From: a virus
IMG/VR virus record: IMGVR_UViG_3300007513_001900
Span: 1-64,000 of that record
DNA length: 64,000 bases
Reading direction: 5' to 3' (one strand)
The translations under genes and the position numbers were made by a program. Numbering within the stretch: the stretch's first letter is position 1; each line of letters starts with the position of its first letter. The notes under the pieces were generated by a model. The model worked only from the letters and a program-made list of their open reading frames with translations, was not told where the DNA came from and ran no database searches. Positions 31,510-58,875 of the stretch are shown piece by piece.

Positions 31510-32712
31510 ATGTCAATTTTTCGTGAACATAAGAGAGTTGCAGATCGATCAGCATCTGACAGACGTCGTCACAAAAAGAAAATTGAGAGAGCGATTAGAG
31601 ATGGTGTACACCATATTGTCGCAGATGAGTCTATTATTGGTCAAGATGGGACAAAAAAAATAAAAATCCCGGTCCGTGGTATCAAAGAATATAAATTTAT
31701 CTACGGTGACAACAAAACTAACAAGAACGTAGGTTCTGCTCCCGGCAAGGACATCAAAAAAGGTCAAGTTATTGGCGATGCTGGTAGTCCCCAACAAGCA
31801 CCTGGATCGGGTGAGCCTGGGAATGAAGCTGGTGAAGAGTATTACGAGGTAGAAATTACCCTCGAGGAATTATCATACTACTTGTTCAATGATTTAGAAT
31901 TACCTGATCTAGAAAAAAAGACTCTCAAGAATATTGTGGGTGAAAAAATTAAGCGCCATGGCTATAGAAAGAATGGAATTCGGCCGCGACTTGATAAGAA
32001 AAAGACGATTATAAACAAAATCAAGAGGCAGAAAGCAACTAACCATGAAAATAAATTATCTGGCAGTGTAGGAAACGATGAAGAGAGCTTTCCATTTCAT
32101 GAAAACGACTTACAGTACAGGCACATCAAGGTTACAAATAAAGAATCTAGTAACGCTGTAATATTTTTCCTCATGGATGTGTCCGGTTCGATGACACAAG
32201 AAAAGAAATTTTTAGCTAGAAGCTTCTATTTTCTATTGTATCATTTCATTAGACATCGCTATGAAAAAGTCGACGTCATATTTATAGCACATGACTCAGA
32301 AGCATATGAAGTTGATGAAGAAAAGTTTTTTCAGCGTGGTAATAGTGGCGGTACAATAGTCTCGTCAGGTTTAGTCAAGATTAATAATATTATTGATAAG
32401 CGTTATCACCCATCATTGTGGAACGTATATGTTTTTCAATGCTCTGATGGTGATAACTGGTCTAGTGATACTCAAAAAACTCTAGAAGAAGCTCAAAAGC
32501 TAAAAGACAAAAGCCAACTATTTGGCTACTGCGAAATTGAGCCTGAGGATGAGAGAATTAAGTGGACAACTAGCGAGTCTAGAATGTCATCTGTATATGA
32601 AGTACTTAGTGGCGGAAATTTTAAAATTGTCAAAGTTTTCAATAAGCATGATATATGGCCAGGGTTTCAGAAACTATTGGGCAAAAAAATGATAGGCAAG
32701 GACAATACATAA
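31510..32712 (+). CDS. yeaH: YeaH/YhbH family VWA protein (DUF444)
   Basis: The 400-residue product has an N-terminal 'FREHKRVADRSASDRRRHKK', a 'ADESIIGQDG' and 'IKIPVRGIKEY' region, and a VWA-like domain with MIDAS 'MDVSGSM' near residue 222. All are hallmarks of YeaH/YhbH (DUF444), which is about 427 residues in bacteria. YeaH works with the kinase PrkA and SpoVR in stress and starvation responses. The stop overlaps the SpoVR start (TAATG). It is the first gene of a three-gene operon. Confidence 0.9.
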   Translation: MSIFREHKRVADRSASDRRRHKKKIERAIRDGVHHIVADESIIGQDGTKKIKIPVRGIKEYKFIYGDNKTNKNVGSAPGKDIKKGQVIGDAGSPQQAPGSGEPGNEAGEEYYEVEITLEELSYYLFNDLELPDLEKKTLKNIVGEKIKRHGYRKNGIRPRLDKKKTIINKIKRQKATNHENKLSGSVGNDEESFPFHENDLQYRHIKVTNKESSNAVIFFLMDVSGSMTQEKKFLARSFYFLLYHFIRHRYEKVDVIFIAHDSEAYEVDEEKFFQRGNSGGTIVSSGLVKINNIIDKRYHPSLWNVYVFQCSDGDNWSSDTQKTLEEAQKLKDKSQLFGYCEIEPEDERIKWTTSESRMSSVYEVLSGGNFKIVKVFNKHDIWPGFQKLLGKKMIGKDNT

Positions 32713-34025
32713 TGTTTTTAGAAGACTGGGATTTCAAATTTCTTCAAGAGTGGGATGATAAAATAAAGATTGCAGCTGAAGAAGCTGGATTAGATTGGTT
32801 TGACATACATTACGAGGTATGTGATTACTTGTCAATGATAGGCCACATGTCATACCATGGTATGCCTTCTCATTACGGTCATTGGAGTTTTGGAAAGTCA
32901 TTTGAAAGAACTCAACAGCAATACAATTTGGGCATGTCCGGGCTCCCTTACGAGCTTATAATAAACTCTGATCCCTCGATTGCATATCTCATGCGTGAAA
33001 ATGCTGCGTACCTTCAGTTGCTGATTATGTGTCACTGTGTAGGTCACTCTGATTTCTTCAAAAATAATCGTATGTTTAGTCATACTGGGCCCAAGTCTAT
33101 TGTTCAAAGAATGCGATCATCTAGAAAAAGAATTCAATCGTACATTGAAGATCCAACTATTGGAATTGTGTTAGTAGAAGAAGTTCTAGATGCTGCGCAT
33201 GCGATTCAATTCCAAACTCATAGATATCATATTAATCGACCGTCTGAAGAAGAGCTCAGAGAAAAATATACCAAATTGATAAAAGAAGATGTTGATGGGA
33301 AGTACAAAGATTTTGATCTAGATGATATACCACTTGAGCCTGAGTATGATTTACTCAATTTTGTCATTAATCACGCGCCGAAGATTCCGGACTGGAAAAA
33401 AGATATTCTAGAAATTGTCCGGAACCAATCACAATATTTTATCCCTCAAATTCAGACAAAAATAATGAATGAGGGCTGGGCATCATTCTGGCACTATAGA
33501 CTAATGCATACACTTGATCTTCCACAAGAATATCATCTTCCTTTTTTGAAAAGTCATAATCAAGTTATTAGACCGCATATTGGTGGTCTAAATCCTTACC
33601 ATCTGGGTTTTGAAATGTTCAAAAGAATTGAAGAGCGTCACGGAATAGATGAGTGCTTTATTGCAAGAGAAACATGCCATGATGCATCTTTTCTACGACA
33701 ATACCTTACACAAAATGACTGTTACGAGTTAGGATTGTTTAGTTTTTCTAAACAAAAGGACAAATTTGTCATTGATGAAATATCAAATGATGAAGGATGG
33801 AAAAGTGTGAGAAGTGACTTAATCAACAATGTTGGGACTAATGGTATACCCGTTATCTATATTGATAGTATTGATGACGGTGACATGCTAATATTACGTC
33901 ATGAGCATGATGGTAGAGATTTAGATCTTTCACATGCTGACGAGGTTGTTGTACACTTAACAACTTTATGGGGTGACGTCGTCAAATTATACACAATTGT
34001 CGAAGGCGACATCTGGGAGATCTGA
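32712..34025 (+). CDS. spoVR: SpoVR family protein
   Basis: The start ATG 32712 overlaps the yeaH stop. The 437 residues include 'FDIHYEVCDYLSMIGHMSYHG', 'MPSHYGHWSFGKSFE', 'HCVGHSDFFKNN', 'MNEGWASFWHYRLMH' and 'NPYHLGFEMFKRIEE', all conserved in SpoVR/YcgB. The fold is zincin-like and the molecular activity is unclear. Bacterial SpoVR is about 500 residues, so this one is somewhat short. It sits between yeaH and prkA, the standard partners. Confidence 0.9.
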   Translation: MFLEDWDFKFLQEWDDKIKIAAEEAGLDWFDIHYEVCDYLSMIGHMSYHGMPSHYGHWSFGKSFERTQQQYNLGMSGLPYELIINSDPSIAYLMRENAAYLQLLIMCHCVGHSDFFKNNRMFSHTGPKSIVQRMRSSRKRIQSYIEDPTIGIVLVEEVLDAAHAIQFQTHRYHINRPSEEELREKYTKLIKEDVDGKYKDFDLDDIPLEPEYDLLNFVINHAPKIPDWKKDILEIVRNQSQYFIPQIQTKIMNEGWASFWHYRLMHTLDLPQEYHLPFLKSHNQVIRPHIGGLNPYHLGFEMFKRIEERHGIDECFIARETCHDASFLRQYLTQNDCYELGLFSFSKQKDKFVIDEISNDEGWKSVRSDLINNVGTNGIPVIYIDSIDDGDMLILRHEHDGRDLDLSHADEVVVHLTTLWGDVVKLYTIVEGDIWEI

Positions 34026-34065
34026 GTTATGAAAAATCAATTAATCACCAAGGGTAAGGTAACCA

Positions 34066-36015
34066 ATGAGTAAGAAAAAAGCTGTGACAGAAAAAGAATT
34101 CTTAGACATTATTCATAGTCAGCGTTCTGACAGTAGAAAAGAAAAGAAATTTCGAGGCACATTTTTAGAGTATTTAGATCTCGTCAAGAAGAATCCGGAG
34201 ATCGTAATACTGTCACACAAAAGACTTCGAAATGCACTCGAATCCCATGGTGTCCGAACAATGGATAGCAGTGACTCTAGAAAAAACAAGATCTTCGGTG
34301 GTGATAATATCAAAATATATGATTATTTTGATAGTGAGTTTTTTGGTATGGAACGAGTAATCTCAAAAATAATGAGATTCTTGAATTCAGCTGCTAGTAA
34401 GGGAGAAGAGAGTCGACAAGTTCTACTTCTAATGGGCCCAGTTGGTGCAGGAAAATCTGCGCTTACAGAGCATATCAAAAGCTCCCTAGAGGGATTTACT
34501 TACTATCACTTAGAAAATGATCCTCAAAGAGGTGAGCCGTTACAGCTAATTCCAAGAAGTCTTAGGGATCAGTTCAATAGCATGCTAGGTGTATCGATCG
34601 ATGGAGATATAAGTCCAGTAGCTAGATGGAACCTTCTAGAAGACTATGATGGAAAATATGAAGACATGACTGTTGTTGAAACAACATTTTCTCAGCGAGG
34701 CCGGAGAGGAATTGCATCAGTCCCACCAATGGACGCAAATAGTCAGGATGTAGGAGTTTTGATTGGTACAGAGGATATATCTAAGCTTGATAAGTACTCT
34801 GAAGATGACCCACGTGTTCTATCACTTAACGGTGCATTCAATGTCGGTAATCGTGGGATTGTAGAGTTAGTTGAGGTTTTCAAGAACGAAATAGAATTCT
34901 TGCACACCATTATCACAGCAACACAAGAAAAAAGAATCCCATCACCTGGAAAGAATGACATGTTGCACTTTGACGGTGTTATTCTTGCACACTGTAATGA
35001 ATCAGAGTGGAATCGATTCCAGAGTGAGCATACTAACGAAGCTATTATGGATAGAATTGTTAAGATCAATGTTCCCTATATTTTAGAATTAGATAGAGAA
35101 GTCATGATTTATGAGAAAATTCTTAGTAGGTCTGATTTTGACGCCCATATTGCGCCGCATACTCTAGAGGTTGCTAGCATGTTCTCTGTACTTTCTAGAC
35201 TTAAGCCCTCTAGCAAGTGTGATCTACTTACAAAGATGAAAATATATAACGGTGATGAAGTTATTGAAAAAGGTCGTGTAAAGAAGGTAGACATTGAAGA
35301 TCTAAGAGAAGAGTCTAGCGATGAGGGGATGAAAGGTATATCAACACGATTCATAATGAAAGCTATAGATAATGCACTAACTGACTCTGACAAAAATATC
35401 ATAACACCTATAGCGATTATAGATAGTGTTATCAAGCAAGTCAAAGAACAGATTATCAATGAAGAATTCAAGACTAAGTGTCTAGAAATCATTCAGCAAA
35501 CTGTTAGAGAAGAATACTTGAAAATTCTAGAAACAGAAATTGCTAAAGCATTCATATCAGCTTACTCAGAACAGGCTCAGAATTTATTTGATACATACTT
35601 GGATAATGCTGAAGCTTACACAACACGTCAAAAAATGAAAGATAAAGTTACGAAAGAAGAGCGATCTCCCGACGAACACTTCATGAAGATTATCGAAGAG
35701 CAAATTGGTATTATAGGGTCTGCACGTGATGGATTCAGAAGTGATGTTACTGCTTATATGTTTGCAAAAATGAGACGCAAAGAAACAATCAATTATCAAA
35801 GTTATGAGCCGCTCAAAGAAGCTATAGAGAATTATCTAATAGGCTCAGTCAAAGATATGGCTAGAATTGTTACAAAATCTAAAACCAGAGATGATGACCA
35901 ACAGAAAAAATATTCTGAAATGGTACAGACGCTAATTGACGATTATGGTTATAATGAACATAGCGCTGAAGAGATTCTGACGTATGCTAGTAACAATCTT
36001 TGGCGAGATAACTAA
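34066..36015 (+). CDS. prkA: PrkA family AAA+ serine protein kinase
   Basis: The 649 residues match the length of bacterial PrkA/YeaG (about 640). It has the N-terminal PrkA AAA domain with Walker A 'GPVGAGKSAL', 'LENDPQRGEPLQLIP', 'GVLIGTEDISKLD' and 'LNGAFNVGNRGIVE'. The region 'CNESEWNRFQ' and a C-terminal helical domain with 'DEHFMKIIEEQIGI' also match. PrkA is a serine kinase/AAA+ ATPase linked to starvation and sporulation pathways. The ribosome site is GGTAAGG-like. It is the last core gene of the yeaH-spoVR-prkA operon. Confidence 0.9.
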   Translation: MSKKKAVTEKEFLDIIHSQRSDSRKEKKFRGTFLEYLDLVKKNPEIVILSHKRLRNALESHGVRTMDSSDSRKNKIFGGDNIKIYDYFDSEFFGMERVISKIMRFLNSAASKGEESRQVLLLMGPVGAGKSALTEHIKSSLEGFTYYHLENDPQRGEPLQLIPRSLRDQFNSMLGVSIDGDISPVARWNLLEDYDGKYEDMTVVETTFSQRGRRGIASVPPMDANSQDVGVLIGTEDISKLDKYSEDDPRVLSLNGAFNVGNRGIVELVEVFKNEIEFLHTIITATQEKRIPSPGKNDMLHFDGVILAHCNESEWNRFQSEHTNEAIMDRIVKINVPYILELDREVMIYEKILSRSDFDAHIAPHTLEVASMFSVLSRLKPSSKCDLLTKMKIYNGDEVIEKGRVKKVDIEDLREESSDEGMKGISTRFIMKAIDNALTDSDKNIITPIAIIDSVIKQVKEQIINEEFKTKCLEIIQQTVREEYLKILETEIAKAFISAYSEQAQNLFDTYLDNAEAYTTRQKMKDKVTKEERSPDEHFMKIIEEQIGIIGSARDGFRSDVTAYMFAKMRRKETINYQSYEPLKEAIENYLIGSVKDMARIVTKSKTRDDDQQKKYSEMVQTLIDDYGYNEHSAEEILTYASNNLWRDN

Positions 36016-36041: not shown

Positions 36042-36305
36042 GTGTCAAAAAACAGTATTAACATTCAACTTCCGGAGATTTTGTGCATATGCAGCTGTAC
36101 ACTCCTAATTTCAGGGTTGACATGGCAAGCCTGGCTATTTTTTGGCTTAGGCCTCTTTGGAGCACTTATTAGAACATCTCTTTTACTACAGACACAGAAA
36201 TTAGCTAAAGAAAAAGTTGAAAGCAGTACTGGTATGCTAGCTGACATCGGTAAAGAAATAGTAAATGCTGTTAAGAATTCTGGTAATGATAATCGATATC
36301 ACTAA
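36042..36305 (+). CDS. Small two-helix membrane protein
   Basis: GTG 36042 follows a CAGGAGACC ribosome site. The 87 residues have hydrophobic segments at about 12-27 and 30-50 (WLFFGLGLFGALI) and then a helical soluble tail. It sits directly after prkA in the same operon. It could anchor a partner at the membrane. No family is recognised. Confidence 0.6.
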   Translation: MSKNSINIQLPEILCICSCTLLISGLTWQAWLFFGLGLFGALIRTSLLLQTQKLAKEKVESSTGMLADIGKEIVNAVKNSGNDNRYH

Positions 36306-36322
36306 AACGAGGTACATCTCAT

Positions 36323-37723
36323 ATGAAATCCCGGGTGCTCTCAAGCAGTGATGTTGATAAAAAGCTTATTTCTTATGTTTCAGATTTAGATGAGTATGTA
36401 AACTTACTCTTTGATGGTAAATCAACTATAGCATATACAGGGGGCGTCATAGGATTAGCACCGATAGATATTCTTCGAATGACAGGAGAATGTCCTCTAA
36501 GCAATACTAATGATATCCTCCTAAGGAATGTATTGATAAACTCTATCATTACATCAGAGAACAAGTGGAGCTGCTCTGGTGTTATCACAGTGCTAGCCTT
36601 CTTAGAGATGTCTAAATACTTAATCAAACGTAAAAAATTACGTAATAATGAGACACTCAATGACATCGACGTAATAATTTCTAGACTTTCAAAGCAAACT
36701 AGAAGATGCTCATCATCTCAAGCACTCACAATATGCGAAAACATAATGAAAGATGACCTGTCTTCACACGCAGTGAAAAAGACAGTTCAGATGTCTGGGG
36801 CTGACGGTCAAATTCATTTTGTACAAAGAGATTCACCATCAAGCTATATTCGTGTAAAGAGTGGATATAAATTTCTGAAATGTGATATTCCTGAAATATT
36901 TCAGAAAGAGTATAGTAATTTGCCATGGATTAGGTCAAATCCCAAAGTATTGATAATCGATGGCATCGTAGAGTCTATAGGTTCAATTCATAATATTTTG
37001 GACGCGTCTATAAAAGATCATGATTCATGTGTGATTATCGCGCGCGGGTTTGGAGGCGATGTTGAAAATACACTAGCTGTCAATATGTCATATGGGCGTC
37101 TGAACGTCTTTCCAATTGCGGTGCAGTCTGATGAAATTGGTGCTAATCAATTGTTTGATATTGCAGCTGTGTGTAATGCTGATGTTGTCTCTTCTCTTAA
37201 GGGTGATGTCATATCTTGCAAAACATTTGAAGACTTAGTTAGTATTGATGAAATTGAGATTACTGATCGCGGGGTTACGATTTACAATGACACCACTAAG
37301 ACTCTTGTCGCAAAAAGAAGATCATCTCTCAAGAAAAAGCTGGGAAATATCGACACTAGCAATGGATTTGACTCTGCAGAATTTCAAAGGAATATGTTTA
37401 GTGAAAGAATTCGATCACTAATTGACAAGGGTGTAGAGCTAAATGTTGGATCTGATTTTGGTGTTAGCAGCGGAATTACTAGAGACAGAATAGAGTCAGG
37501 AATTAGAGTCTATAGAGACTCATGTCGCCATGGAATAATAAGCACATCAGATTCTATAAACTATTTGCCGAGACACCTCAGAAGCATAGCTTCCAGACTC
37601 GAGTCTGCTGGGATATATAATATGTCAGCGCCCGGATTTCTTGCCGGCCTCAAGATTGGGCATCAAACAGCAATTACTTGTTCTAGGGTGGGTGCATGGG
37701 TTGTGTGCGATGAATCATACTAA
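36323..37723 (+). CDS. Divergent GroEL-like chaperonin, ATPase motif lost
   Basis: The 466-residue product aligns by eye with GroEL along its length. Residues about 15-100 resemble the N-terminal equatorial part ('GGVIGLAPIDILRMTGE', 'VITVLAFLEM'). The apical domain is clear: 'VKSGYKF', 'PKVLIIDGIVESIGSIHNIL', 'CVIIARGFGGDVENTLAVNM', 'VFPIAV'. Then comes 'SERIRSLIDKGVELNVGSDF' with 'RDRIESGIRVYRD', matching 'R...L.GGVA.I.VG....D-x-x-x-A'. The GDGTT nucleotide motif is replaced by 'SCSGVIT', and the last 80 or so residues are missing. It could be a substrate-binding ring or a cofactor for host GroEL. Confidence 0.7.
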   Translation: MKSRVLSSSDVDKKLISYVSDLDEYVNLLFDGKSTIAYTGGVIGLAPIDILRMTGECPLSNTNDILLRNVLINSIITSENKWSCSGVITVLAFLEMSKYLIKRKKLRNNETLNDIDVIISRLSKQTRRCSSSQALTICENIMKDDLSSHAVKKTVQMSGADGQIHFVQRDSPSSYIRVKSGYKFLKCDIPEIFQKEYSNLPWIRSNPKVLIIDGIVESIGSIHNILDASIKDHDSCVIIARGFGGDVENTLAVNMSYGRLNVFPIAVQSDEIGANQLFDIAAVCNADVVSSLKGDVISCKTFEDLVSIDEIEITDRGVTIYNDTTKTLVAKRRSSLKKKLGNIDTSNGFDSAEFQRNMFSERIRSLIDKGVELNVGSDFGVSSGITRDRIESGIRVYRDSCRHGIISTSDSINYLPRHLRSIASRLESAGIYNMSAPGFLAGLKIGHQTAITCSRVGAWVVCDESY

Positions 37724-38487: not shown

Positions 38488-38958
38488 GTGTATGGTATTA
38501 AGCACATGATTGATTGTCACTGCATTCTTCCACAATATAAGCGAAAAAGCAATCCGCTATTTCATAAATTCGTGGTTTTTTCTATTGTAGACGAAAGTGA
38601 CACTGTAATACCAAAGTACTCACAATGTAATAATTGTGGTGTGGTTCACAAAGTATACGATTTGTGTAAGTCAGAAATAATTGCGGGAAAAGACGAGACA
38701 AGAGCTGTTGCATCTATTGAAGATGTTAGTTATTCAATACCAGCAGACTTGAGAGACTTATTGAAAACATATGATTGTGACATAGCAACATGGGAACATA
38801 CAAAATATGCTGTGGAGCATAGAAAATATGGTGAGAAGATTATCTTGACTAGAGAGATGGTTGACACTGAAATTACCGGCAAGGTTTTGGTTATTAAAGA
38901 AAAAGATAAATTTGTAGTAGAATCATATATTGAAGAAACAGCGACAAGCGAACGATGA
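38488..38958 (+). CDS. Conserved zinc-binding-type protein of unknown function
   Basis: GTG 38488 or ATG 38506 are possible starts; I list the longer. The product has 'MIDCHCILPQYK', 'KFVVFSIVDESD', 'YSQCNNCGVVHKVYDLC', 'YDCDIATWEHTKY' and a C-terminal beta part. The CxC and CxxC pairs suggest a bound metal. It reads like a well-conserved protein, but I cannot name the family. Confidence 0.6.
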   Translation: MYGIKHMIDCHCILPQYKRKSNPLFHKFVVFSIVDESDTVIPKYSQCNNCGVVHKVYDLCKSEIIAGKDETRAVASIEDVSYSIPADLRDLLKTYDCDIATWEHTKYAVEHRKYGEKIILTREMVDTEITGKVLVIKEKDKFVVESYIEETATSER

Positions 38959-39433: not shown

Positions 39434-39795
39434 GGGGACGCACCGGTTTCGACAGGGTAGTCTAGAAGGATAGTGCAAGTGCTCTAATGATGATTCGAGC
39501 TAAAAGATTTATCAAAAAAATAATTGCTAATAACAATAATTTCTACAACGTAGCTCTAGCAGCTTAGTAGTGGGGTTTTCAATAACCTTATTACCCAATA
39601 TTGAATAATAGGTAGAGATCCTATGAAAATAACAAATCAAAAATGGTTACCCTGGAAACAGGTGGAATCCGAGGCAACATAGGAATGGGAATTTTGTTGC
39701 TACCTTTTTAGTTTGGGAATAAGCTAAATAAACTTGTGAATGACTTGAATTTAACGTTATCTTGGACAGGAGTTCGACTCTCCTCGTCTCCACCA
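39434..39795 (+). ncRNA. ssrA: tmRNA
   Basis: The 362-base RNA begins GGGGACGCACCGGTTTCGAC and ends with a T-arm 'GGAGTTCGACTCTCC' and encoded CCA at 39793-39795. The acceptor helix GGGGACG/CGTCTCC has the G-U third pair needed for alanine charging. The tag frame opens with the resume codon GCT at 39526 and reads ANNNNFYNVALAA to TAG at 39565-39567, a typical '-ALAA' degradation tag. The RNA rescues stalled ribosomes with SmpB. No smpB gene is seen in the window, so host SmpB would be needed. Confidence 0.95.
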
Positions 39796-39956: not shown

Positions 39957-41168
39957 TTGGCTTCATCAACAAAAAGTTTGTTTTCAAAAAGAAGCAATGC
40001 AGTTGTAACCAAACCCAAGATCATCAACAATGTTATAGAGACACATAATAGCTTAGTTATAAACGACAAGGAAAAAGAAATGGCTGGACAAGAAGATACA
40101 AAAGAAGACACTTACATAAACCCTGCGGATGATCTTGGGTTTGACTTTGTCGAAGCATATGACGATGATCCCGTAGAAGCAGATGAACGGATGTTACCTG
40201 AGAATTCATCTGCTTGTGCTATTAAGTGTGCATTTATTGGTGTTGGCGGAGGTGGTGGTAAATTAGCTAAAGCATTTCTAGATTTAGGATTTTCGAAAAC
40301 AATATTGGTAAATACAACAGTCAAAGATCAGCCTGCAGGTGTAGCGCCCGAAAACTTTTTACTTATGCCTGGTGCTGACGGTGTGGGAAAAGATATAGAT
40401 GTGGGTCGTCAAGTGCTCAAGGAAAATAGTACTCTATTAGAAGACGCGCTTAGAACACGAATTGGGCCGGTTGATTGGGTATTTGTTCTAGCGGGTGGCG
40501 GAGGTGGTACAGGTAGTGCGTGTTCAACACTACACAATTCTATTGATAGACACCTAAAATCATGTGAATCAACTGGGAAGGTTGTCTATGTTATAACAAA
40601 ACCATCTGCTCAAGAACTACTAAATCCTACGATATCATCAAATTATAAATCTACAATCGAAGATGTTTCTAGACATCCCCATATTGTAATTGACAATGAA
40701 CGACAACTTCAATTGCTCAGAGGCAAGGTAGGGATGCTTGATTTGTATCCGTCTGCTAATAGAAATTTTGCTAAGTTAATGGCGCAAATATTTAAACTCT
40801 CATCAGAAAGTTCGCCTATTCAATCATTTGACACTAAAGACTTAGAACGATGTTTGGGTACACCAGGAAGAATGGTTGTGGGTAGTACTATAGCTAGAGA
40901 TACTAACATTAGAGACTTAGGATCTTCCTTATTTCAGGGTTGTATCAAATCATCGCCGTGTTCTGCCCCACGAGGATCGATAGCTACTGGAGCTATGTTA
41001 CTAGTAGTTACATCTAACATGGCAAATGATCCAGTGGTTAGCAAAAAATTAGAAGCAGCTCTTTCATATGTCGGTGGCAGAACTGAGACATTATTCTCAG
41101 GAATCTATGTTAATGAATCCGTTCCGGGACTAATAGCTATTACATTACTTGGCGGCATTGAATCATAA
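39957..41168 (+). CDS. Tubulin/FtsZ-superfamily GTPase
   Basis: The 403 residues carry the FtsZ-like first loop 'CAFIGVGGGGGKLAKAF' (about residue 87) and the tubulin signature 'LAGGGGGTGSACS' (about residue 180). An acidic T7-like region follows ('SFDTKDLERCLG'). The fold polymerises with GTP. In phages and plasmids, relatives (PhuZ, TubZ) move DNA or centre the phage nucleus. The start is TTG 39957, ten bases after AGGA; ATG 40080 after AAGGAAA is an alternative that removes 41 residues. It lies between the tmRNA and the sigma-like gene. Confidence 0.8.
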   Translation: MASSTKSLFSKRSNAVVTKPKIINNVIETHNSLVINDKEKEMAGQEDTKEDTYINPADDLGFDFVEAYDDDPVEADERMLPENSSACAIKCAFIGVGGGGGKLAKAFLDLGFSKTILVNTTVKDQPAGVAPENFLLMPGADGVGKDIDVGRQVLKENSTLLEDALRTRIGPVDWVFVLAGGGGGTGSACSTLHNSIDRHLKSCESTGKVVYVITKPSAQELLNPTISSNYKSTIEDVSRHPHIVIDNERQLQLLRGKVGMLDLYPSANRNFAKLMAQIFKLSSESSPIQSFDTKDLERCLGTPGRMVVGSTIARDTNIRDLGSSLFQGCIKSSPCSAPRGSIATGAMLLVVTSNMANDPVVSKKLEAALSYVGGRTETLFSGIYVNESVPGLIAITLLGGIES

Positions 41169-50144: not shown

Positions 50145-52100
50145 ATGTTTGGTAACAGCCCATTTGATTCAGAGCAGCGTAAACTAATAACTGTGCCTGA
50201 ATCTGCAAAAATAATATTCGTCTCAGACATGTTTGTTGAAGACTACGTAGGGGGAGCAGAATTGACATCTGAGGCACTAATAGAAGCCTCTCCGTTTGAA
50301 GTTTTTAAGTTACATGCTCGTGATGTAGATCTCAGGCTTCTAGAAGAAGCTCAGAATTGTCATTGGATATTCGGAAATTTTGCTTCTTTGAATATGGAAT
50401 TAATTCCAACTATCTGCGCAAATATCAGATACTCTATTTTAGAGTATGATTATAAATTCTGCAAGTACAGATCTCCGGAAAAACATTATGCGTTAGAGAA
50501 TTCTGATTGTGACTGTGTTGATCAGATAAATGGAAAGATGATATCAGCTTTCTTTTACGGTGCTAAATCACTTTGGTGGATGTCAGAAAAACAAATGGAG
50601 AGATATCACGAATACTTTCCGTTCCTATCTGAAGTCAACAATGTAGTTCTAAGTTCTGTCTTTGATGATAAATTTTTCTTAGCACTCAAACTCCTCAAGA
50701 AGAAAAACAAAGACATTGAGAGAAAGGGGTGGGTCGTTTTAGGATCAGCTAGCTGGATTAAGGGAGCAGATGATGCTAAACAGTGGTGCGAAGATAATAA
50801 TAAAGATTATCAGATACTTTGGGACACACCCTACGAGTATGTTCTAGAAACTTTGGCAAAATCTGAAGGTTTTGTCTATCTACCTAAGGGCGGTGACACC
50901 TGCCCCAGAATGGTAATAGAAGCTAAATTATTGGGTTGTAAATTACACATCAATGATTTTGTTGAGCATAAAGATGAGATATGGTTTGACACATCTGATG
51001 AATTTGACACTGAGGCTTATCTTTACGCAGCTAGAGACAGATTCTGGGGCGGCATAAAATCAGATATGGAATGGTGCCCAACACTTAGCGGCTATATAAC
51101 TACTCTAGACTGTGATAAAAATAATTATCCATGGCAAGCTTCTATTGAGTCGATGTTGGGCTTTTGTGATGAAGTCGTAGTTATGGATGGCGGCTCTAAA
51201 GATGGCACATGGGAAAAACTTCTAGATTGGTCAAGCAAAGAAGACAATTTACATGCGCATCAAGTCAAGAGAGACTGGTCGCACCCAAGATTCGCAGTTT
51301 ACGATGGCGCGAACAAAGCACTAGCACGAGATAAATGCAGTATGGATTTTTGCTGGCAGCAAGATGCAGACGAAATAGTTCATGAGAATGATTTTCAAAA
51401 GATCAAGAATCTGATGATATCATTTCCGGGCAATATTGACATTGTTTGTCTTCCAGTTGTAGAATACTGGGGAGGAGAAGAAAAAGTCAGGATGGATATC
51501 AATCCATGGAAGTGGAGGATAAGCAGAAATATGCCTCACATTACACACGGAATCCCAGGTGCACTGAGACTTAAAGATGAAGATGGTTCACTATATGCTC
51601 AACCAGGCACAGACGGATGTGACTACATAGATTCTAATACATATGACCCAATTCCTCATGCTACTTTCTACAATACTGAAGCTCACAATTGCAAGATCAA
51701 GGCATTAGAGGGAGACACGGTATCACATACAAATTATTCTAAGTGGTTTGAAAGATGTGTTGATTTACTTCCGACAGTGCATCATTACTCATGGTTTGAT
51801 TTAACTAGAAAGATTAAGACATACAGAGACTACTGGTCACAACATTGGCAAAGTCTGTACAATATTGAACAAGAAGATACAGCAGAGAATAACATGTTTT
51901 TTCAAAAACCATGGTCAGAAGTATCAGATGATGACATTCAAAGTCTATCAGAAGCACTTCGTGATAAAACAGGCGGCTGGGTATTTCACACTCCAATCGA
52001 TTTTTCGAAACCCAACCCCCATGTAACACTCAAATCAGATCACCCAAAGTATATATGGTCATGGCTGGGTCGCACTCAAGAGAGCACTAATGAAGGATAA
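50145..52100 (+). CDS. Two-domain glycosyltransferase (GT4-like plus GT2)
   Basis: The 651-residue protein has an N-terminal half (1-300) with Rossmann-like elements ('KIIFVSDMFVEDYVGGAE', 'LPKGGDTCPRMVIEAKLLGC') typical of GT4-type enzymes. The second half (about 325-560) is GT2 with 'VVVMDGGSKDGTWEKLLDW' and 'QQDADEIV' (D-x-D). It may add two sugars in turn. GTGAGGAAAT is the ribosome site. It is the first gene of the overlapping glycan operon and ends 11 bases into the next gene. Confidence 0.75.
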   Translation: MFGNSPFDSEQRKLITVPESAKIIFVSDMFVEDYVGGAELTSEALIEASPFEVFKLHARDVDLRLLEEAQNCHWIFGNFASLNMELIPTICANIRYSILEYDYKFCKYRSPEKHYALENSDCDCVDQINGKMISAFFYGAKSLWWMSEKQMERYHEYFPFLSEVNNVVLSSVFDDKFFLALKLLKKKNKDIERKGWVVLGSASWIKGADDAKQWCEDNNKDYQILWDTPYEYVLETLAKSEGFVYLPKGGDTCPRMVIEAKLLGCKLHINDFVEHKDEIWFDTSDEFDTEAYLYAARDRFWGGIKSDMEWCPTLSGYITTLDCDKNNYPWQASIESMLGFCDEVVVMDGGSKDGTWEKLLDWSSKEDNLHAHQVKRDWSHPRFAVYDGANKALARDKCSMDFCWQQDADEIVHENDFQKIKNLMISFPGNIDIVCLPVVEYWGGEEKVRMDINPWKWRISRNMPHITHGIPGALRLKDEDGSLYAQPGTDGCDYIDSNTYDPIPHATFYNTEAHNCKIKALEGDTVSHTNYSKWFERCVDLLPTVHHYSWFDLTRKIKTYRDYWSQHWQSLYNIEQEDTAENNMFFQKPWSEVSDDDIQSLSEALRDKTGGWVFHTPIDFSKPNPHVTLKSDHPKYIWSWLGRTQESTNEG

Positions 52101-52815
52101 TCGATTTGTTTTCATAATGCCGGCATTCAATGCCGAAGCTACAATTGCCAGAAGTATAATGTCAGTTTGGTTTCAAACTCATGAAAACTGGAAGATTATA
52201 ATTCGTGATGACTGTTCAACAGATAGAACTCCTGATATGGTCAACCTTATCAAGCAGCAGCTAGCTATCCCTGATGATAAAATATCGCTAACAGTTAATA
52301 GTGAAAAGCACTGGGAAGTGAAGAATATTGTTGAGTCTTTGAAAGAATGTGATTCGAATGACATTATTTGTAGGCTAGACGGCGATGACTGGCTTTGTGA
52401 CTGTGATGCGCTCAGTATCATTAACAATCGATACCAGCAGAAAAATTATGACGCAATTTGGACAGCACATCGATGGGATTATACACACAATAATATATCC
52501 CGGTCATTGCCGACAACCGCAGATCCATACAAACATCAATGGGTCTCTTCACATCTTAAAACGTTTAGAAAAAGAATCATTGAAGACGTAAAAGATGAAA
52601 ACTTTAGAGGTCCAGATGGAGATTACTTCAAGAGGATAGGTGATCAAACAATATACTTGCCAGTATTACATCAAGCCGCCGGCAATTGGCATTATGAGCC
52701 AATAGTTGCATATCACTACTCTATAGACATGAGCCCAAATACATTCCAGTCAGATGATGCCAAATTTCAGAAGTCCGAGGGTGAATTTCTCCGGACACGA
52801 GGTTTTATTTCATGA
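52090..52815 (+). CDS. Family 2 glycosyltransferase
   Basis: The 241 residues open 'FVFIMPAFNAEATIARSIMS', with 'IIIRDDCSTDRTPDMV' and 'IICRLDGDDWLCD', the standard GT2 nucleotide-sugar and D-x-D metal sites. It overlaps both neighbours. It transfers a sugar from a nucleotide donor to an unknown acceptor. Length fits a single GT2 domain. Confidence 0.85.
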   Translation: MKDNRFVFIMPAFNAEATIARSIMSVWFQTHENWKIIIRDDCSTDRTPDMVNLIKQQLAIPDDKISLTVNSEKHWEVKNIVESLKECDSNDIICRLDGDDWLCDCDALSIINNRYQQKNYDAIWTAHRWDYTHNNISRSLPTTADPYKHQWVSSHLKTFRKRIIEDVKDENFRGPDGDYFKRIGDQTIYLPVLHQAAGNWHYEPIVAYHYSIDMSPNTFQSDDAKFQKSEGEFLRTRGFIS

Positions 52816-53738
52816 AAGTATTCTTCAATAGAGTCCCTCGAGATGAACCGTACGGCGGCGGCAATCAATTTTTATCTGCTATGGTCAAACATCTTGTCAA
52901 TCATGATCATGAAGTTACTTTCAATCTTGAGGAAAATATTGACATAATATTTTTGATGGATCCTCGGCCTGGTGACATAGGATACTCAATTGAGCATGTT
53001 TCTAGATATAAATCAGCGCATCCAGAAACTAAAATACTACACAGAGTAAATGAATGCGACAAAAGAAAAGATACTAGCTTTATCGATAAGATTTTACTAG
53101 ACTCAGCAAATATTTCTGACGAAGTAGTTTTTATAAGCCAGTGGTTGGCAGACTATTTTGTGAACGCCGGTTACGACAAAGATTATCATGTAATTTATAA
53201 TGGCTGCAATGCAGATCATTTCTATCCAGGTAACAGAAAAATAGTTACACATAAACCGAAATTAGTAACACATCACTGGTCTGACAACTGGATGAAGGGG
53301 TTTGATTTGTATACAGAGATAGATCGTTATCTTCAAGACAATGACGACTTTGAATTTACGTATGTAGGTAGGTATAATAAAACCTACTCTCCAAGCGCTA
53401 CATCAATTGTTGGCCCGCTTTCCGGAGCATCACTCGGTAATGAACTAAGAAAGCATGACATATATGTTACAGCTAGCAAATTTGAGCCGTGCGGAATGCA
53501 TCATATTGAAGGCGCTGCGTCAGGAATGCCTGTTATATATCACACTGATACAGGGGGAATAAAAGAGCTATGCAAACAGCATGGCGAAGAGTACGAGACA
53601 TTTCATCAGTTTCTTAATGCTATCGATATTATTGTCAAAGATTATAAATCCTATGTATCAAAAATTGACACCGAATTTATGAATATTGATAGATGTGTAT
53701 CACAATACTACAATATAATTGAATCAATGGTGAATTAG
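52812..53738 (+). CDS. Family 4-type glycosyltransferase
   Basis: The 308-residue product starts ATGA-overlapped with the GT2 gene. It has 'GGGNQFLSAMVKHLVNHDHEV' (N-terminal acceptor domain) and 'KFEPCGMHHIEGAASGMPVI', the E-x7-E donor-site motif of GT4 enzymes, plus 'TDTGGIKELC'. It forms part of the sequential glycan assembly. Donor and acceptor are unknown. Confidence 0.85.
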   Translation: MKVFFNRVPRDEPYGGGNQFLSAMVKHLVNHDHEVTFNLEENIDIIFLMDPRPGDIGYSIEHVSRYKSAHPETKILHRVNECDKRKDTSFIDKILLDSANISDEVVFISQWLADYFVNAGYDKDYHVIYNGCNADHFYPGNRKIVTHKPKLVTHHWSDNWMKGFDLYTEIDRYLQDNDDFEFTYVGRYNKTYSPSATSIVGPLSGASLGNELRKHDIYVTASKFEPCGMHHIEGAASGMPVIYHTDTGGIKELCKQHGEEYETFHQFLNAIDIIVKDYKSYVSKIDTEFMNIDRCVSQYYNIIESMVN

Positions 53739-54658
53739 TGAATATTCATTTTTCTAATGTCAATTTTTCTTCGTCCACGGGACCCAATACATTTGCTGCA
53801 AGACTAGCTAGCGAGTTGATGTCATTTGGCCACGAGCTAGTACCAGCTAGTGATCAGTATGATTCTTTGCTAGCATTTATTGAGCCGGTTACTATTCCAC
53901 GCCCAAATGCCAAAACAATTCAGCGTCTAGACGGAATTTGGTTCAAGCCAGATGAGTTTTATATCAAGAATCAACATATCAAGTGGGCATACGATAATTT
54001 TGATCACATCATATGGCAGTCTGAGTTTGATAAAAAAATGACAGAGTATCACTGGGGCGCCCGGGTCGGCTCAGTGATAAGAAATGGAATTGCTATTGAG
54101 CGATCGATACCCTCTAATGAAAATTTACTAAAACTTAGAAAGAAATATGACTACCTATTTGTTTGTTCTGCCAATTGGCATCGACAAAAGCGCCTAAGAG
54201 AAAATATAGATCTATTTCTGAATCTCAAAAAGAACTCAAAGTATGAAAATTCAGGACTCATTGTGTTAGGCAATAACCCTGATCATATAGTAGATAATTC
54301 TAGTATATACTACGCAGGCTCAGTTCCACACAGCTTATGTCTAGAAATATATTCAGCAGCAGACTGGATGATACACTTAGCTTGGTTAGATCACTGTCCA
54401 AATGTTGTTGTTGAGTCTTTATCACAGCAGTGTCCTGTTATATGCTCTTCTTCAGGGGGCACAAAAGAAATAGTAAAAAATAACGGATTGATTATCCAAG
54501 AAGATAAAGAGTACAAGTATGAGCTTCTAGACTATGATTCTCCCTATAAATTAGATATATCTAAAATTACAGACTTGCCAACCATCGATGTATCTTGCGA
54601 TTATCTCAACATAAACACTATTGCGAAAGAATATGAGCGTATTTGTACTAGCACCTAA
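53738..54658 (+). CDS. Family 4-type glycosyltransferase
   Basis: GTG 53738 shares the stop of the previous gene (TAGTGA). The 306 residues have 'FSSSTGPNTFAARLASELMS', 'FVCSANWHRQKRLRENIDLF', and a donor site 'CPNVVVESLSQQCPVI' followed by 'SSGGTKEIV', a standard GT4 layout. It sits in the middle of the glycosyltransferase run. Confidence 0.85.
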   Translation: MNIHFSNVNFSSSTGPNTFAARLASELMSFGHELVPASDQYDSLLAFIEPVTIPRPNAKTIQRLDGIWFKPDEFYIKNQHIKWAYDNFDHIIWQSEFDKKMTEYHWGARVGSVIRNGIAIERSIPSNENLLKLRKKYDYLFVCSANWHRQKRLRENIDLFLNLKKNSKYENSGLIVLGNNPDHIVDNSSIYYAGSVPHSLCLEIYSAADWMIHLAWLDHCPNVVVESLSQQCPVICSSSGGTKEIVKNNGLIIQEDKEYKYELLDYDSPYKLDISKITDLPTIDVSCDYLNINTIAKEYERICTST

Positions 54659-55583
54659 AGAAGACTGGATATGTGATAGATTTGTAACTGAGTGGAATCA
54701 GGCACAACCCTACCCTACATCAACATCTATAGAAGACTCGAGTGTCATTTGGTTGTTGGCTGACTGGTGCTGGAATAAAGTAAGTCCCAATCTACTCATA
54801 CAAAAAAAAGTTGTTGCATCTGTTCACCATATTGTACCTAACAAATTTGATAAACAGCAGAAAGAAGATTTTCTAGAAAGAGACAAGTACGTCGATTTAT
54901 ATCATGTCCCATGTGAGAAAACAAAAGAGCAAATATTACCGTATACCAAAAAGCCCATATGGGTCCAGCCTTTTTGGGTAAATCAAAACATATGGAAGGG
55001 GTTATCTAAAAAGTTACGTCAAGATATACGAACTCAATATGGTATTTCTGACAATTGTTTCCTTATAGGATCGTTCCAGAGAGACACAGAGGGCCATGAT
55101 CTTAAGAGTCCCAAATTAGAAAAAGGTCCAGATCTTTTTTGTGATGCTGTTGAAGAGCTTAGAGACTTCTACAAGACAAAGAATGTAGAGGTTCGTGTGC
55201 TTCTAGCAGGGTGGCGACGTCAGTATGTCATTCGAAGATTGAAAGATGCTAATATTCCGTATTACTATTCTGAGCTTCCGCCGATGTCTGACATCAATAC
55301 ATTTTATAATATTTTAGATCTATACATTGTTGCAGCAAGGTTTGAAGGTGGACCACAATCAATTGTTGAATGTGCACTTACAAAAACACCAATTGTGTCA
55401 ACAGATGTAGGAATATCTGATATAATTCTAAGCCCAGGTTCAATATTTCAACCCGGAAATGTAAAAATGGCTAAGCCTGATGTAGAATATGCATATGAAA
55501 GTGTGTCCCAATACTCTATGCCTACCGGATTTATGCCGTTTGTTACAATGTTTGAAAAGCTCATGAGCACTAGCAATGACTAA
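54633..55583 (+). CDS. Family 4-type glycosyltransferase
   Basis: ATG 54633 lies inside the end of the previous gene; a TTG at 54621 is less likely. The 316 residues include 'SVHHIVPNKF', 'IGSFQRDTEGHDL', and the donor site 'FEGGPQSIVECALTKTPIV' with 'TDVGISDII'. It is the fourth glycosyltransferase gene of the operon. The stop overlaps the cupin gene. Confidence 0.8.
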   Translation: MSVFVLAPKEDWICDRFVTEWNQAQPYPTSTSIEDSSVIWLLADWCWNKVSPNLLIQKKVVASVHHIVPNKFDKQQKEDFLERDKYVDLYHVPCEKTKEQILPYTKKPIWVQPFWVNQNIWKGLSKKLRQDIRTQYGISDNCFLIGSFQRDTEGHDLKSPKLEKGPDLFCDAVEELRDFYKTKNVEVRVLLAGWRRQYVIRRLKDANIPYYYSELPPMSDINTFYNILDLYIVAARFEGGPQSIVECALTKTPIVSTDVGISDIILSPGSIFQPGNVKMAKPDVEYAYESVSQYSMPTGFMPFVTMFEKLMSTSND

Positions 55584-55920
55584 TCAGCGTCCATGGGGAA
55601 CGTATACTGTTTTGCACGACCCAGATGACTGCAAAGTTAAAAGAATATCAGTGCTACCGGGACAACAGTTAAGCTACCAATATCACCATCATAGATCTGA
55701 AGTGTGGGTATTTTTATCAGGCATAGGAAAAGTAATTCTAGACGGGCATGAAATAGACGTATCACCTGGAAAGATTGTCCAAATACCCGCCCTGTCTAAA
55801 CATAGAATTAGAAATACAGGAAACAAGAATCTAGACCTAATTGAAGTACAATTAGGTGCCTATTTCGGTGAAGATGACATCGTCAGGCTAGAAGATGATT
55901 ACGACAGAGTACAAACATAG
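55576..55920 (+). CDS. Mannose-6-phosphate isomerase-type cupin
   Basis: The 114-residue cupin starts 'RPWGTYTVLHD' and has 'VLPGQQLSYQYHHHRSEVW', 'SGIGKVILDGHEI' and 'IPALSKHRIRNTG'. This matches the C-terminal isomerase domain of ManC/type II PMI, with His and Glu metal ligands. It would interconvert fructose-6-P and mannose-6-P, which fits the PMM-like gene at 26.6 kb. The guanylyltransferase half of ManC is absent. Confidence 0.8.
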   Translation: MTNQRPWGTYTVLHDPDDCKVKRISVLPGQQLSYQYHHHRSEVWVFLSGIGKVILDGHEIDVSPGKIVQIPALSKHRIRNTGNKNLDLIEVQLGAYFGEDDIVRLEDDYDRVQT

Positions 55921-55933
55921 TGAGAGTATTATA

Positions 55934-57862
55934 ATGAGACATATACACATTAGAGATAAATTATCTGAATTGAACATAAACCTTGAAGACTTAGCTTTGG
56001 GTGACTTCGACTACATAGGAGAATTTACAGCAAAAAAGCAAAGAGAAGCTAGTCATCCTTACTTCAAAACCCATGGGTGTTTCTTCAGGCCAAACTATGA
56101 AAGAGGTATCTTGATATATTCTCTAATAAGAAAATATAACTTGACATCTATGCTTGAGATCGGCTTCGGTCGTGGGTATGGAACTATGTGTGCTGCTAAG
56201 GCATTTCATGATATGGGAATTGAGGGAAAAATTGTAACTATAGATCCAAATTTGGACGAAGATTTTGTTAGAAATCTTACACAAGTGTTTCCCAAATCAT
56301 GGTTTTCAATGATTCAGTTCGCAAAAGGAACATCAAACAATGTTCTGCCTCAAGTAAAAGAAAATTTCGACATGATATACATTGACGGAGATCATACATA
56401 CGAGGGTGTAAAATCTGACTGGAATAACTGTAAAGACAAGTTCAATAAATTTTTACTATTTGATGATTATCATTTGCCAACCAAGAACGACCCGGGTATA
56501 CAATGTGCTAAGGCAATTGATGAAATAGATGCACCTAAAGATCTAATCATCATGGATAGAAGAATATTTCATGATGATTTGTGCCGCGAAGATAAAGAGG
56601 TTGACTACGGACAAGTTCTTATTGAACGAGAGGGTGATGCATTACACAGCATGCCAAAAAACCAGTCACCCTTTTCTGAAGTCTGGAGCCCGGAAGATAA
56701 TGTTCCAGAAGCAGATAGTGAATTGATGTCCTATAGAAATGAGTGGATGGATGAAGACGAAGATGTCGACGCAATATTTCCAAGTAGCATTACTATGGGT
56801 GCATTAGAATCATCTCTAGTGAATAGAGAAAAATCATGGCCAAAAAGAGGTGAATCATACATCAAGCTAATGAATTCACTATCTGATTTTTCTGCAGATT
56901 TAGTTAGCAAGTCTGATTCTAGCAATATTGATGTCGACAAAATAACTAGTTTGTCTAGCAACATGGACGATCCTGTGTTTATATTTGGAAACATGAAGGC
57001 CGGTACTTCATTATTGTTGTGTCTCTTAGATGGTCACAATAGCTTACTAGCACTCCCAGTTGATTCTCATCTGATGAAGCATCACTCACCTGAGGCAACA
57101 GTGCCATCCAGGACAATGATCAACGAGGCAAGATCACGCTGGCTGGGGAAACTTATAAGCCCTACGGGTTACAGCCCATACCTACTATTGGGGAAAGATA
57201 GAGGTGCATATCAGAAGTTCACTGATGCTTACGAATGGGCTTCTATGAACCTGCTAGACGAAGCTCCATTCTCATTATTCAAGGTAGCCGCGTCAGCGTT
57301 CGCATTATCATATCCACATAAGCTCAATAAAGATTTTCGTGTTGTAGAAAAAACACCAGAAAATGAAAGATTCTTTTCGCAGATAAGTAAAAACTTTACT
57401 AATGCATCTTATGTACACGTGCTTAGAAACCCTATTGACAATGTTGCTAGTATGAAAAAATTGTGTGAATCTCGAGACGAATCATTCAACTTGAGGCATG
57501 TTGCACATTCTATCAACACTGGCTTAGAATTAGCTATAGACAATTCTGCATCTTCAGAACAGTATAAGCTGGTGAAATATGAAGATTTAGTTGAAAACAC
57601 AGAAGATGTTATGCGTGAAGTTTCTAAGCACGTTGGAATAAGTTATACAAAATCACTTTTAAAACCAACTTCACTCAAATTGTCAAATAAGTCAAATTCA
57701 ATGTTCGATTCTAGAAGAGTTACTGGCGAAATATGTGTTGAAGAAAAAGAAGAAAGGCAGAATAGAATAAATAGCACACTCACAGACAGTGAAATATCTG
57801 AAGTCATCAGAATCTGTGGTGAGAATGCTAAGAAGCTAGGCTACACTTTAGATTCTGCATGA
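55934..57862 (+). CDS. Fusion of a class I methyltransferase and a sulfotransferase
   Basis: ATG 55934 follows GAGAG; 55895 is an alternative start. Residues about 60-200 form a SAM methyltransferase ('MLEIGFGRGYGTMCAAKAF', 'DMIYIDGDHTYEGVKSDW'). Residues about 355-640 are a sulfotransferase: 5'-PAPS loop 'FGNMKAGTSLLLCL', 'VVEKTPENERFF' and the 3'-phosphate site 'HVLRNPIDNVASM'. The central 100 residues are a linker. The enzyme probably adds methyl and sulfate groups to a glycan. I know no standard family with this order. Confidence 0.75.
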   Translation: MRHIHIRDKLSELNINLEDLALGDFDYIGEFTAKKQREASHPYFKTHGCFFRPNYERGILIYSLIRKYNLTSMLEIGFGRGYGTMCAAKAFHDMGIEGKIVTIDPNLDEDFVRNLTQVFPKSWFSMIQFAKGTSNNVLPQVKENFDMIYIDGDHTYEGVKSDWNNCKDKFNKFLLFDDYHLPTKNDPGIQCAKAIDEIDAPKDLIIMDRRIFHDDLCREDKEVDYGQVLIEREGDALHSMPKNQSPFSEVWSPEDNVPEADSELMSYRNEWMDEDEDVDAIFPSSITMGALESSLVNREKSWPKRGESYIKLMNSLSDFSADLVSKSDSSNIDVDKITSLSSNMDDPVFIFGNMKAGTSLLLCLLDGHNSLLALPVDSHLMKHHSPEATVPSRTMINEARSRWLGKLISPTGYSPYLLLGKDRGAYQKFTDAYEWASMNLLDEAPFSLFKVAASAFALSYPHKLNKDFRVVEKTPENERFFSQISKNFTNASYVHVLRNPIDNVASMKKLCESRDESFNLRHVAHSINTGLELAIDNSASSEQYKLVKYEDLVENTEDVMREVSKHVGISYTKSLLKPTSLKLSNKSNSMFDSRRVTGEICVEEKEERQNRINSTLTDSEISEVIRICGENAKKLGYTLDSA

Positions 57863-58875
57863 AGATAATTGCTATAACACCAGACAATAAGATGGATGCA
57901 GTTGTCCCAATTGTTATCGAAGGTCTGTATGATTTGGGTGTAGAAGTAATTGCAACAGACTATGGTAACAGTGTAAGAAGAGTGTATGCAGACGAAGATG
58001 TGATTGAGCATTCTAAAACAGCAGACTTTATTTTTGTGTTGTGGGGTAAGATAAGAGACAACAATCCTCCCAAATACTATCTTTTAAACAAAATAAACAG
58101 GCCGGAGATCACTGCTTACATTGACGGAAGTGAATGGACAGCAACAGGGTACCCTGATGACAAAGAAAGAGTATCAGCACCATGGGCAAAAAATGGAACT
58201 ATTGCTAAGCAAGTCTATGAATCAAAATTTAATCCCAGCAGGTGTAAGGGCACTCCATGGATTAATGATGTTATGTATGATTATTGTCGTTGGTACTTCA
58301 AGAGAGAATGTTATCAATCAGATGCTGATATAGGAATAATACCTTTCAACATAGGCTGCAAGATGTCTTATTTGTCTGATGACTTTTGTGATAAGTCAGT
58401 TGACGTAGTATGCTCATTTGGGCATCTCCACACAGGACTTCGCTGGGAAGTATATCATTTTTGCAAAAGACTGGAGAAAGAAGGTTACACTGTCGACTTT
58501 GTAAGTAACGTTTCGTATAGCGAATACAGAAAACGTCTATCAAGAGCATATATTGGAGTCGACGCTTGGGGTGCTGGAAATAGCTCAATGAGAACGTGGG
58601 AAATTATGGGAAACAAAACATGCTGCTTTACACAAAGCGCAGAGATACTATTTCCTAACAAGCCAACAGACAACGTGCATTGGATAGAGTACTCAAATAT
58701 GAAAGAATTTGAGTTAAAAATATATGATATGCTTAATAATAAACAAAAATGTAAAGATATCGGTATTGCCGGTTATGATTACACAGTCAAGTATCACACA
58801 GGAAAGCCACGTGTAAGATATATGCTAGACATCATGAGGAAGGATATAGATGAAGATACACACAGACTTAAGTGA
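57859..58875 (+). CDS. CgeB-like glycosyltransferase
   Basis: The 338-residue product overlaps the previous stop (ATGA). Features are 'FIFVLWGKIRDNNPP', 'YIDGSEWTATGY', 'CSFGHLHTGLRWEVYHFCKR', 'AYIGVDAWGAGNSSMRTWEI' and 'GNKTCCFTQ'. The C-terminal half resembles the CgeB-type glycosyltransferase domain of spore and surface glycan synthesis. The acceptor is unknown. It overlaps the next gene by 26 bases. Confidence 0.65.
   Translation: MKIIAITPDNKMDAVVPIVIEGLYDLGVEVIATDYGNSVRRVYADEDVIEHSKTADFIFVLWGKIRDNNPPKYYLLNKINRPEITAYIDGSEWTATGYPDDKERVSAPWAKNGTIAKQVYESKFNPSRCKGTPWINDVMYDYCRWYFKRECYQSDADIGIIPFNIGCKMSYLSDDFCDKSVDVVCSFGHLHTGLRWEVYHFCKRLEKEGYTVDFVSNVSYSEYRKRLSRAYIGVDAWGAGNSSMRTWEIMGNKTCCFTQSAEILFPNKPTDNVHWIEYSNMKEFELKIYDMLNNKQKCKDIGIAGYDYTVKYHTGKPRVRYMLDIMRKDIDEDTHRLK

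Follow-up and report, generated by a model that had tools for sequence, protein, structure and literature searches.

Group I chaperonins are the classical examples of ATP-driven machines. Among those encoded by phages, EL gp146, OBP gp246 and AR9 gp228 are, like the protein described here, divergent from GroEL and without an obvious GroES, and they act with ATP (PMC7185714, PMC5934643, PMC9598537). Group I paralogues altered at the ATP- and GroES-binding regions occur in chlamydiae, in which GroEL2 and GroEL3 are present beside a normal GroEL1 (PMC1892554). The vertebrate proteins BBS6/MKKS and BBS12, which derive from group II chaperonins, combine a chaperonin fold with a degenerate ATP motif; they neither carry out ATP-dependent folding nor form rings, yet act in complex assembly (PMC5534436). 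A literature search of incomplete coverage returned no description of a phage GroEL lacking the ATP site, or of a paired set of such a protein with an active GroEL.

The window, a stretch of 64,000 nucleotides from the IMG/VR record IMGVR_UViG_3300007513_001900 (itself a 71-kb fragment), encodes on its plus strand a 466-aa pseudo-chaperonin (36323..37723) with a predicted GroEL-like three-domain fold that lacks the nucleotide site. The reading frame opens with an ATG, preceded about 10 nt upstream by a GAGG-type ribosome site. The protein matched PHROG 5725 ('chaperonin groEL') over residues 144-407 (E=1.4e-17) and the NCBIfam GroEL models with E-values from 1e-17 to 1e-15 (best E=1.3e-17, residues 116-407), at scores of 55-63 bits against cut-offs of 352-582; for TIGR02348, the score of 55.4 bits was below the family cut-off of 582.1 bits. 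The model NF038369, which represents the chlamydial GroEL2/GroEL3 proteins, gave 27.2 bits, below its 600-bit cut-off, and those paralogues are much closer to GroEL than the pseudo-chaperonin is. Strong phmmer matches in the PDB were chaperonins only, and a profile-profile comparison of the kind suggested in the preliminary description (hhalign) aligned residues 44-407 with canonical GroELs at a probability of 99.7% (E=1e-25). A Pfam search returned no PF00118 match for the window protein, and none of the three family members tested received a Pfam chaperonin annotation. The similarity to GroEL is far above chance, yet partial, and the protein belongs by descent to the group I chaperonin superfamily, with homology that is significant over most of its length. 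Chance similarity or a misread frame is ruled out by the PHROG, NCBIfam and profile-profile matches together with the AlphaFold model. The presence of a 100% identical gene on two other IMG/VR contigs excludes an assembly error, and with the dN/dS values given below it also rules out an artefact or pseudogene. The protein is related to GroEL by descent and falls outside the functional definition of GroEL, and its identity as a pseudo-chaperonin can be regarded as close to certain.

AlphaFold2, run on 28 aligned family members, modelled the window protein with a pLDDT of 89.4 and a pTM of 0.79, and the best Foldseek matches of this model in the PDB were all chaperonins (E=2e-25). Comparison with Thermus Cpn60 (4v4o_C) by VIA-align 2 aligned residues 2-465 of the model with residues 3-528 (Z 27.6, 450 of the 466 residues, 5.0 A), with the equatorial, intermediate and apical domains all present in GroEL order; the apical domains alone aligned over 176-186 residues at 2.2-2.7 A. 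Structural matches also included the phage EL chaperonin (6tmu_A, Z 23.2). The model of a relative only 19% identical to the window protein (L046), whose source phage also encodes a canonical GroEL, reached a pLDDT of 84.5 and aligned over 448 residues (Z 25.7, 4.2 A), with its hairpin region modelled at low confidence. In the window protein, strands predicted at residues 2-6, 35-38, 41-44 and 459-463 occupy what we take to be the positions of the GroEL N-terminal strand, stem hairpin and C-terminal strand, which in GroEL form intra-ring contacts. The C-terminal equatorial part (37544..37720, plus strand) is shortened to about 59 aa, compared with about 112 aa in GroEL, and retains the last strand. 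The preliminary description had proposed a divergent phage chaperonin without the ATP motif, with the apical domain and flanking hinges in GroEL-like order and a shortened C-terminal equatorial part, and had named a predicted structure lacking the chaperonin fold as the outcome that would speak against it. The predicted structure has the fold, and together with about 95 relatives it bears out each of these points.

The nucleotide site has changed at most of the positions to which we assign, from established GroEL biochemistry, the catalytic and nucleotide-binding roles (D52, D87, D398 and the GGG at 414-416). In the profile alignment, the SCSGVIT sequence at residues 83-89 (codons at 36569..36589, plus strand) falls on A85-GDGTT-T91 of GroEL, so that C84-S85-G86-V87-I88-T89 lie on G86-T91 and S85 takes the place of D87; the replacement of GDGTT by this sequence had been noted before and is upheld. 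Further along, S392 aligns with D398, T408-S409 align with G414-G415 and the GGG is lost, and D49 aligns with D52. Across the family, D87 is retained in 0 of the 94 members with a residue at that position and D398 in 1/91, and D52 is an aspartate in 37 of 95 sequences, compared with retention of D52, GDGTTT, D398 and GGG in all 15 canonical GroEL controls, eight of which come from phages in which the divergent gene is present too. Because the N-terminal equatorial part aligns only weakly, conclusions about single sites in that part depend on the alignment; the absence of the GDGTT string from every family member does not. Judged from sequence, the loss of ATP use in the family is strongly supported, and a classical ATPase cycle is very probably lacking. 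This would set the protein apart from the EL, OBP and AR9 chaperonins, whose action is ATP-dependent.

Conservation within the family peaks in the apical domain (residues 181-368; 36863..37426, plus strand), rising from 0.15 in the equatorial domain to 0.29 in the apical domain and 0.36 in the apical core, the reverse of the order in canonical GroELs (0.46, 0.375 and 0.39, respectively). N265, shared with GroEL, is kept in 95/95 members, D213-G214 and E221 are almost unchanged across the family, and R241, which corresponds to E252 in GroEL, is R or K in 76/95. In the window protein the domain contains D213-G214, R241, N254 and G294. Position L234, a client and GroES contact in GroEL, is polar (H/N/D/E/Y) in 94/95 members and L/I/M in all 15 canonical controls. 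L237 is retained, and positions 263/264 (GroEL V263 and V264) are mixed, so that the family does not preserve the hydrophobic client/GroES groove formed in GroEL by L234, L237, V263 and V264. This pattern would agree better with a face dedicated to a particular partner than with a hydrophobic groove of general use, and a selected function exerted through the apical domain is probable.

Single-protein scans of viral contigs with the fast-evolving window protein returned only the protein itself. The family was revealed instead through its neighbours and a narrower alignment. The PrkA/YeaG-type kinase encoded upstream (34066..36015, plus strand) was the bait that first exposed it, with 46 loci, most of which have a syntenic pseudo-chaperonin relative. 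A tighter eight-row alignment recovered 27 loci, including new members on contigs without a detected PrkA, and the downstream protein with a CxC...CNNCG...H motif (38488..38958, plus strand) recovered 214. Among the 80 of these 214 loci closest to the window, the pseudo-chaperonin gene lies just upstream of the Cys-motif gene in 80/80, a rate that need not extend to all. In total, about 95 distinct relatives were recovered from IMG/VR, which rules out a lone oddity. Nearly all are 373-488 aa long (one, cut by a contig end, is 294 aa), compared with about 525-550 aa for GroEL/Cpn60, and in some subclades the C-terminal equatorial part is reduced from about 59 residues to 23. All divergent members form one clade in the tree (SH-aLRT 100), on a long stem of 1.56 changes per column. 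Median identity to the window is 27% for the pseudo-chaperonin, as against 73% for PrkA, 56% for SpoVR, 51% for PhoH and 47% for the Cys-motif protein. The gene is under purifying selection despite this fast evolution, with gene-average dN/dS of 0.06-0.15 in close pairs, distant pairs being saturated and left out. Four proteins (L147, L148, L150 and L170), of which only about 138 residues align, to the apical domain, and which have no GroEL match, are a further degenerate subgroup.

Around the gene, a predicted membrane-type small protein of 87 aa (36042..36305, plus strand) is tightly spaced upstream and was detected in close relatives only, and the pseudo-chaperonin gene overlaps at its end with the start codon of an RNase H-like gene (PF04308; 37710..38204, plus strand). 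The Cys-motif family, which had no match in named phages or Pfam, is an excellent marker for the phage clade. The kinase gene is the last of a complete, phage-borne DUF444(YeaH)-SpoVR(YcgB)-PrkA(YeaG) stress-kinase module (31510-36015) that is kept in about 40 other viral contigs. PrkA is a neighbour in only one part of the clade and the contigs of several members show no PrkA, which rules out service to this module as the general purpose of the gene.

The carriers form a sizeable group of giant phages related to T4, all uncultured. A 137-kb contig with an identical gene encodes a T4-type terminase closest to those of Microcystis phage Mel-JY01 and Flavobacterium immuto phages (41%), and a T4-type Gp23 capsid protein is present on 10/10 contigs tested. 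At the profile level, ten records of named phages, huge phages among them, contained a canonical GroEL or nothing, and none contained the divergent gene; in tblastn, no match reached 80% coverage of the protein. One contig of the clade (L097, PBIO01000025.1) was binned in a Halobacteriovorax MAG, a weak hint that this predatory bacterium is a possible host.

The pseudo-chaperonin is a conserved core gene of the whole phage clade, and its carriers differ from phages EL, OBP and AR9 in having a second, canonical GroEL; the preliminary description had anticipated neither point. All seven contigs of at least 230 kb with a pseudo-chaperonin (G010, G022 and G028-G032; 235-298 kb) also encode a GroEL with an intact ATP site, a non-independent count, since the two genes could simply belong to the clade's shared core. 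These canonical GroELs are full-length and score 499-645 bits against TIGR02348. Both genes are present in a 157-kb contig (G021), and an incomplete contig of 171-172 kb (G018) has the pseudo-chaperonin only; all contigs are linear IMG/VR records, none certified complete. A PrkA-bearing relative (G009) has a canonical GroEL and a weak GroES-like match and lacks the divergent gene. A co-occurrence scan with the canonical GroEL of G010 returned only a self-match. The two chaperonin genes are tens of kb apart, which, like the shared-core possibility and G018, weighs against a partnership of their products. The canonical groEL adjoins a conserved gene for a product of about 140 aa in 7/8 cases (L051 3274-3690, minus strand; L200 4110-4580, minus strand; L202 863-1282, plus strand; and equivalents), and a sigma-factor gene is near in 6/8. 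The product of the 140-aa gene had no convincing PDB or Pfam match and is a possible candidate co-chaperonin.

The best explanation, to which we assign a probability of about one half, is that the protein is an ATP-independent pseudo-chaperonin with a re-specialised apical face that works with the phage's own GroEL in the folding or assembly of phage proteins. It would be a group-I-type subunit that has kept its three-domain shape, lost the usual ATP binding and hydrolysis, and become a nucleotide-independent partner of the phage GroEL. It might enter mixed rings with that GroEL as a non-catalytic subunit, or it might be an adaptor whose apical domain holds phage clients and hands them over to the active GroEL. 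Folding of T4 Gp23 requires host GroEL and gp31, which makes the T4-type Gp23 capsid protein a natural candidate client; tail proteins may be others. The presence of an own GroEL on every large contig makes the phage protein a likelier partner than host GroEL, and direct partnership of the two phage proteins is proposed tentatively, at rather less than even odds. Somewhat doubtful is a true two-subunit chaperonin, in which the phage GroEL would hydrolyse ATP and an obligate non-ATPase subunit would set client choice or replace GroES; we know of no such division of labour among group I chaperonins.

The main rival, which we consider unlikely, is a stand-alone ATP-independent holdase or assembly factor, in which monomers or a single ring would bind one or a few phage proteins, such as capsid or tail proteins, with no chaperonin partner. 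Loss of the ATP site, the shrinkage of the equatorial part in several subclades and the concentration of conservation on the apical domain all agree with such a factor, as do the position of the gene a few kb ahead of PhoH and baseplate/tail genes and the precedent of BBS6/BBS12 in BBSome assembly (PMC5534436). It leaves the active GroEL on every large contig unexplained, however, and the nearly universal polar residue at L234 speaks against broad hydrophobic client binding. A role as lid or release factor on the phage GroEL, substituting for GroES, would account for the result of a PF00166 search, which detected no GroES on the seven large contigs (0/7) or on G021 and G018, given that the same search finds it in 12/14 control genomes. 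A GroES as far diverged as gp31, or one from the host, could escape this search, however, and the phage GroELs of EL, OBP and AR9 function in the absence of a co-chaperonin (PMC9598537), which makes this substitution quite improbable.

The phage-encoded GroEL also weighs against a modulator, raised in the preliminary description, that enters or sits on host rings and poisons or redirects host GroEL. Fast change relative to PrkA suits a host-facing protein, and the strands that serve in ring contacts (N-terminal, hairpin and C-terminal) are part of the predicted structure of the window protein, but the dN/dS of close pairs, as gene averages, provides no indication of diversifying selection, an arms-race gene would not usually be a conserved core gene with a constant position, and PADLOC returned no anti-phage-defence match; this reading is improbable and is not favoured. 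The lost catalytic site and strong length variation could also suggest a decaying remnant without function. Purifying selection contradicts this, and more than 90 distinct members with an open reading frame, the invariant apical residues and the fixed synteny leave it scarcely credible.

A partner of the phage GroEL of the kind preferred here would give viruses of prokaryotes a counterpart to BBS6/BBS12, which it would resemble in its way of working; their loss of ATP use was independent, and the best sequence matches of the pseudo-chaperonin are to group I proteins. An identity is now given to about 95 proteins, and a clade with both an active and a non-catalytic GroEL makes it directly testable whether the group I fold can serve without ATP. 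By the same means it can be tested how the capsid protein is folded in large-genome phages of the T4 type.

Several other features of the window lie downstream. A tmRNA (39434-39795) with the tag ANNNNFYNVALAA is confirmed by Rfam (RF00023), which found no other match over the locus. It is followed by a Tubulin/FtsZ-like GTPase (39957-41168; PF00091, E=4e-7) with a weak PhuZ match, about 60% conserved in close relatives. A cluster of glycosyltransferase and methyltransferase-like genes (50145-58875) is located downstream of the tail genes, and a radical SAM protein with a weak QueE-like match is encoded at 62175-63290.
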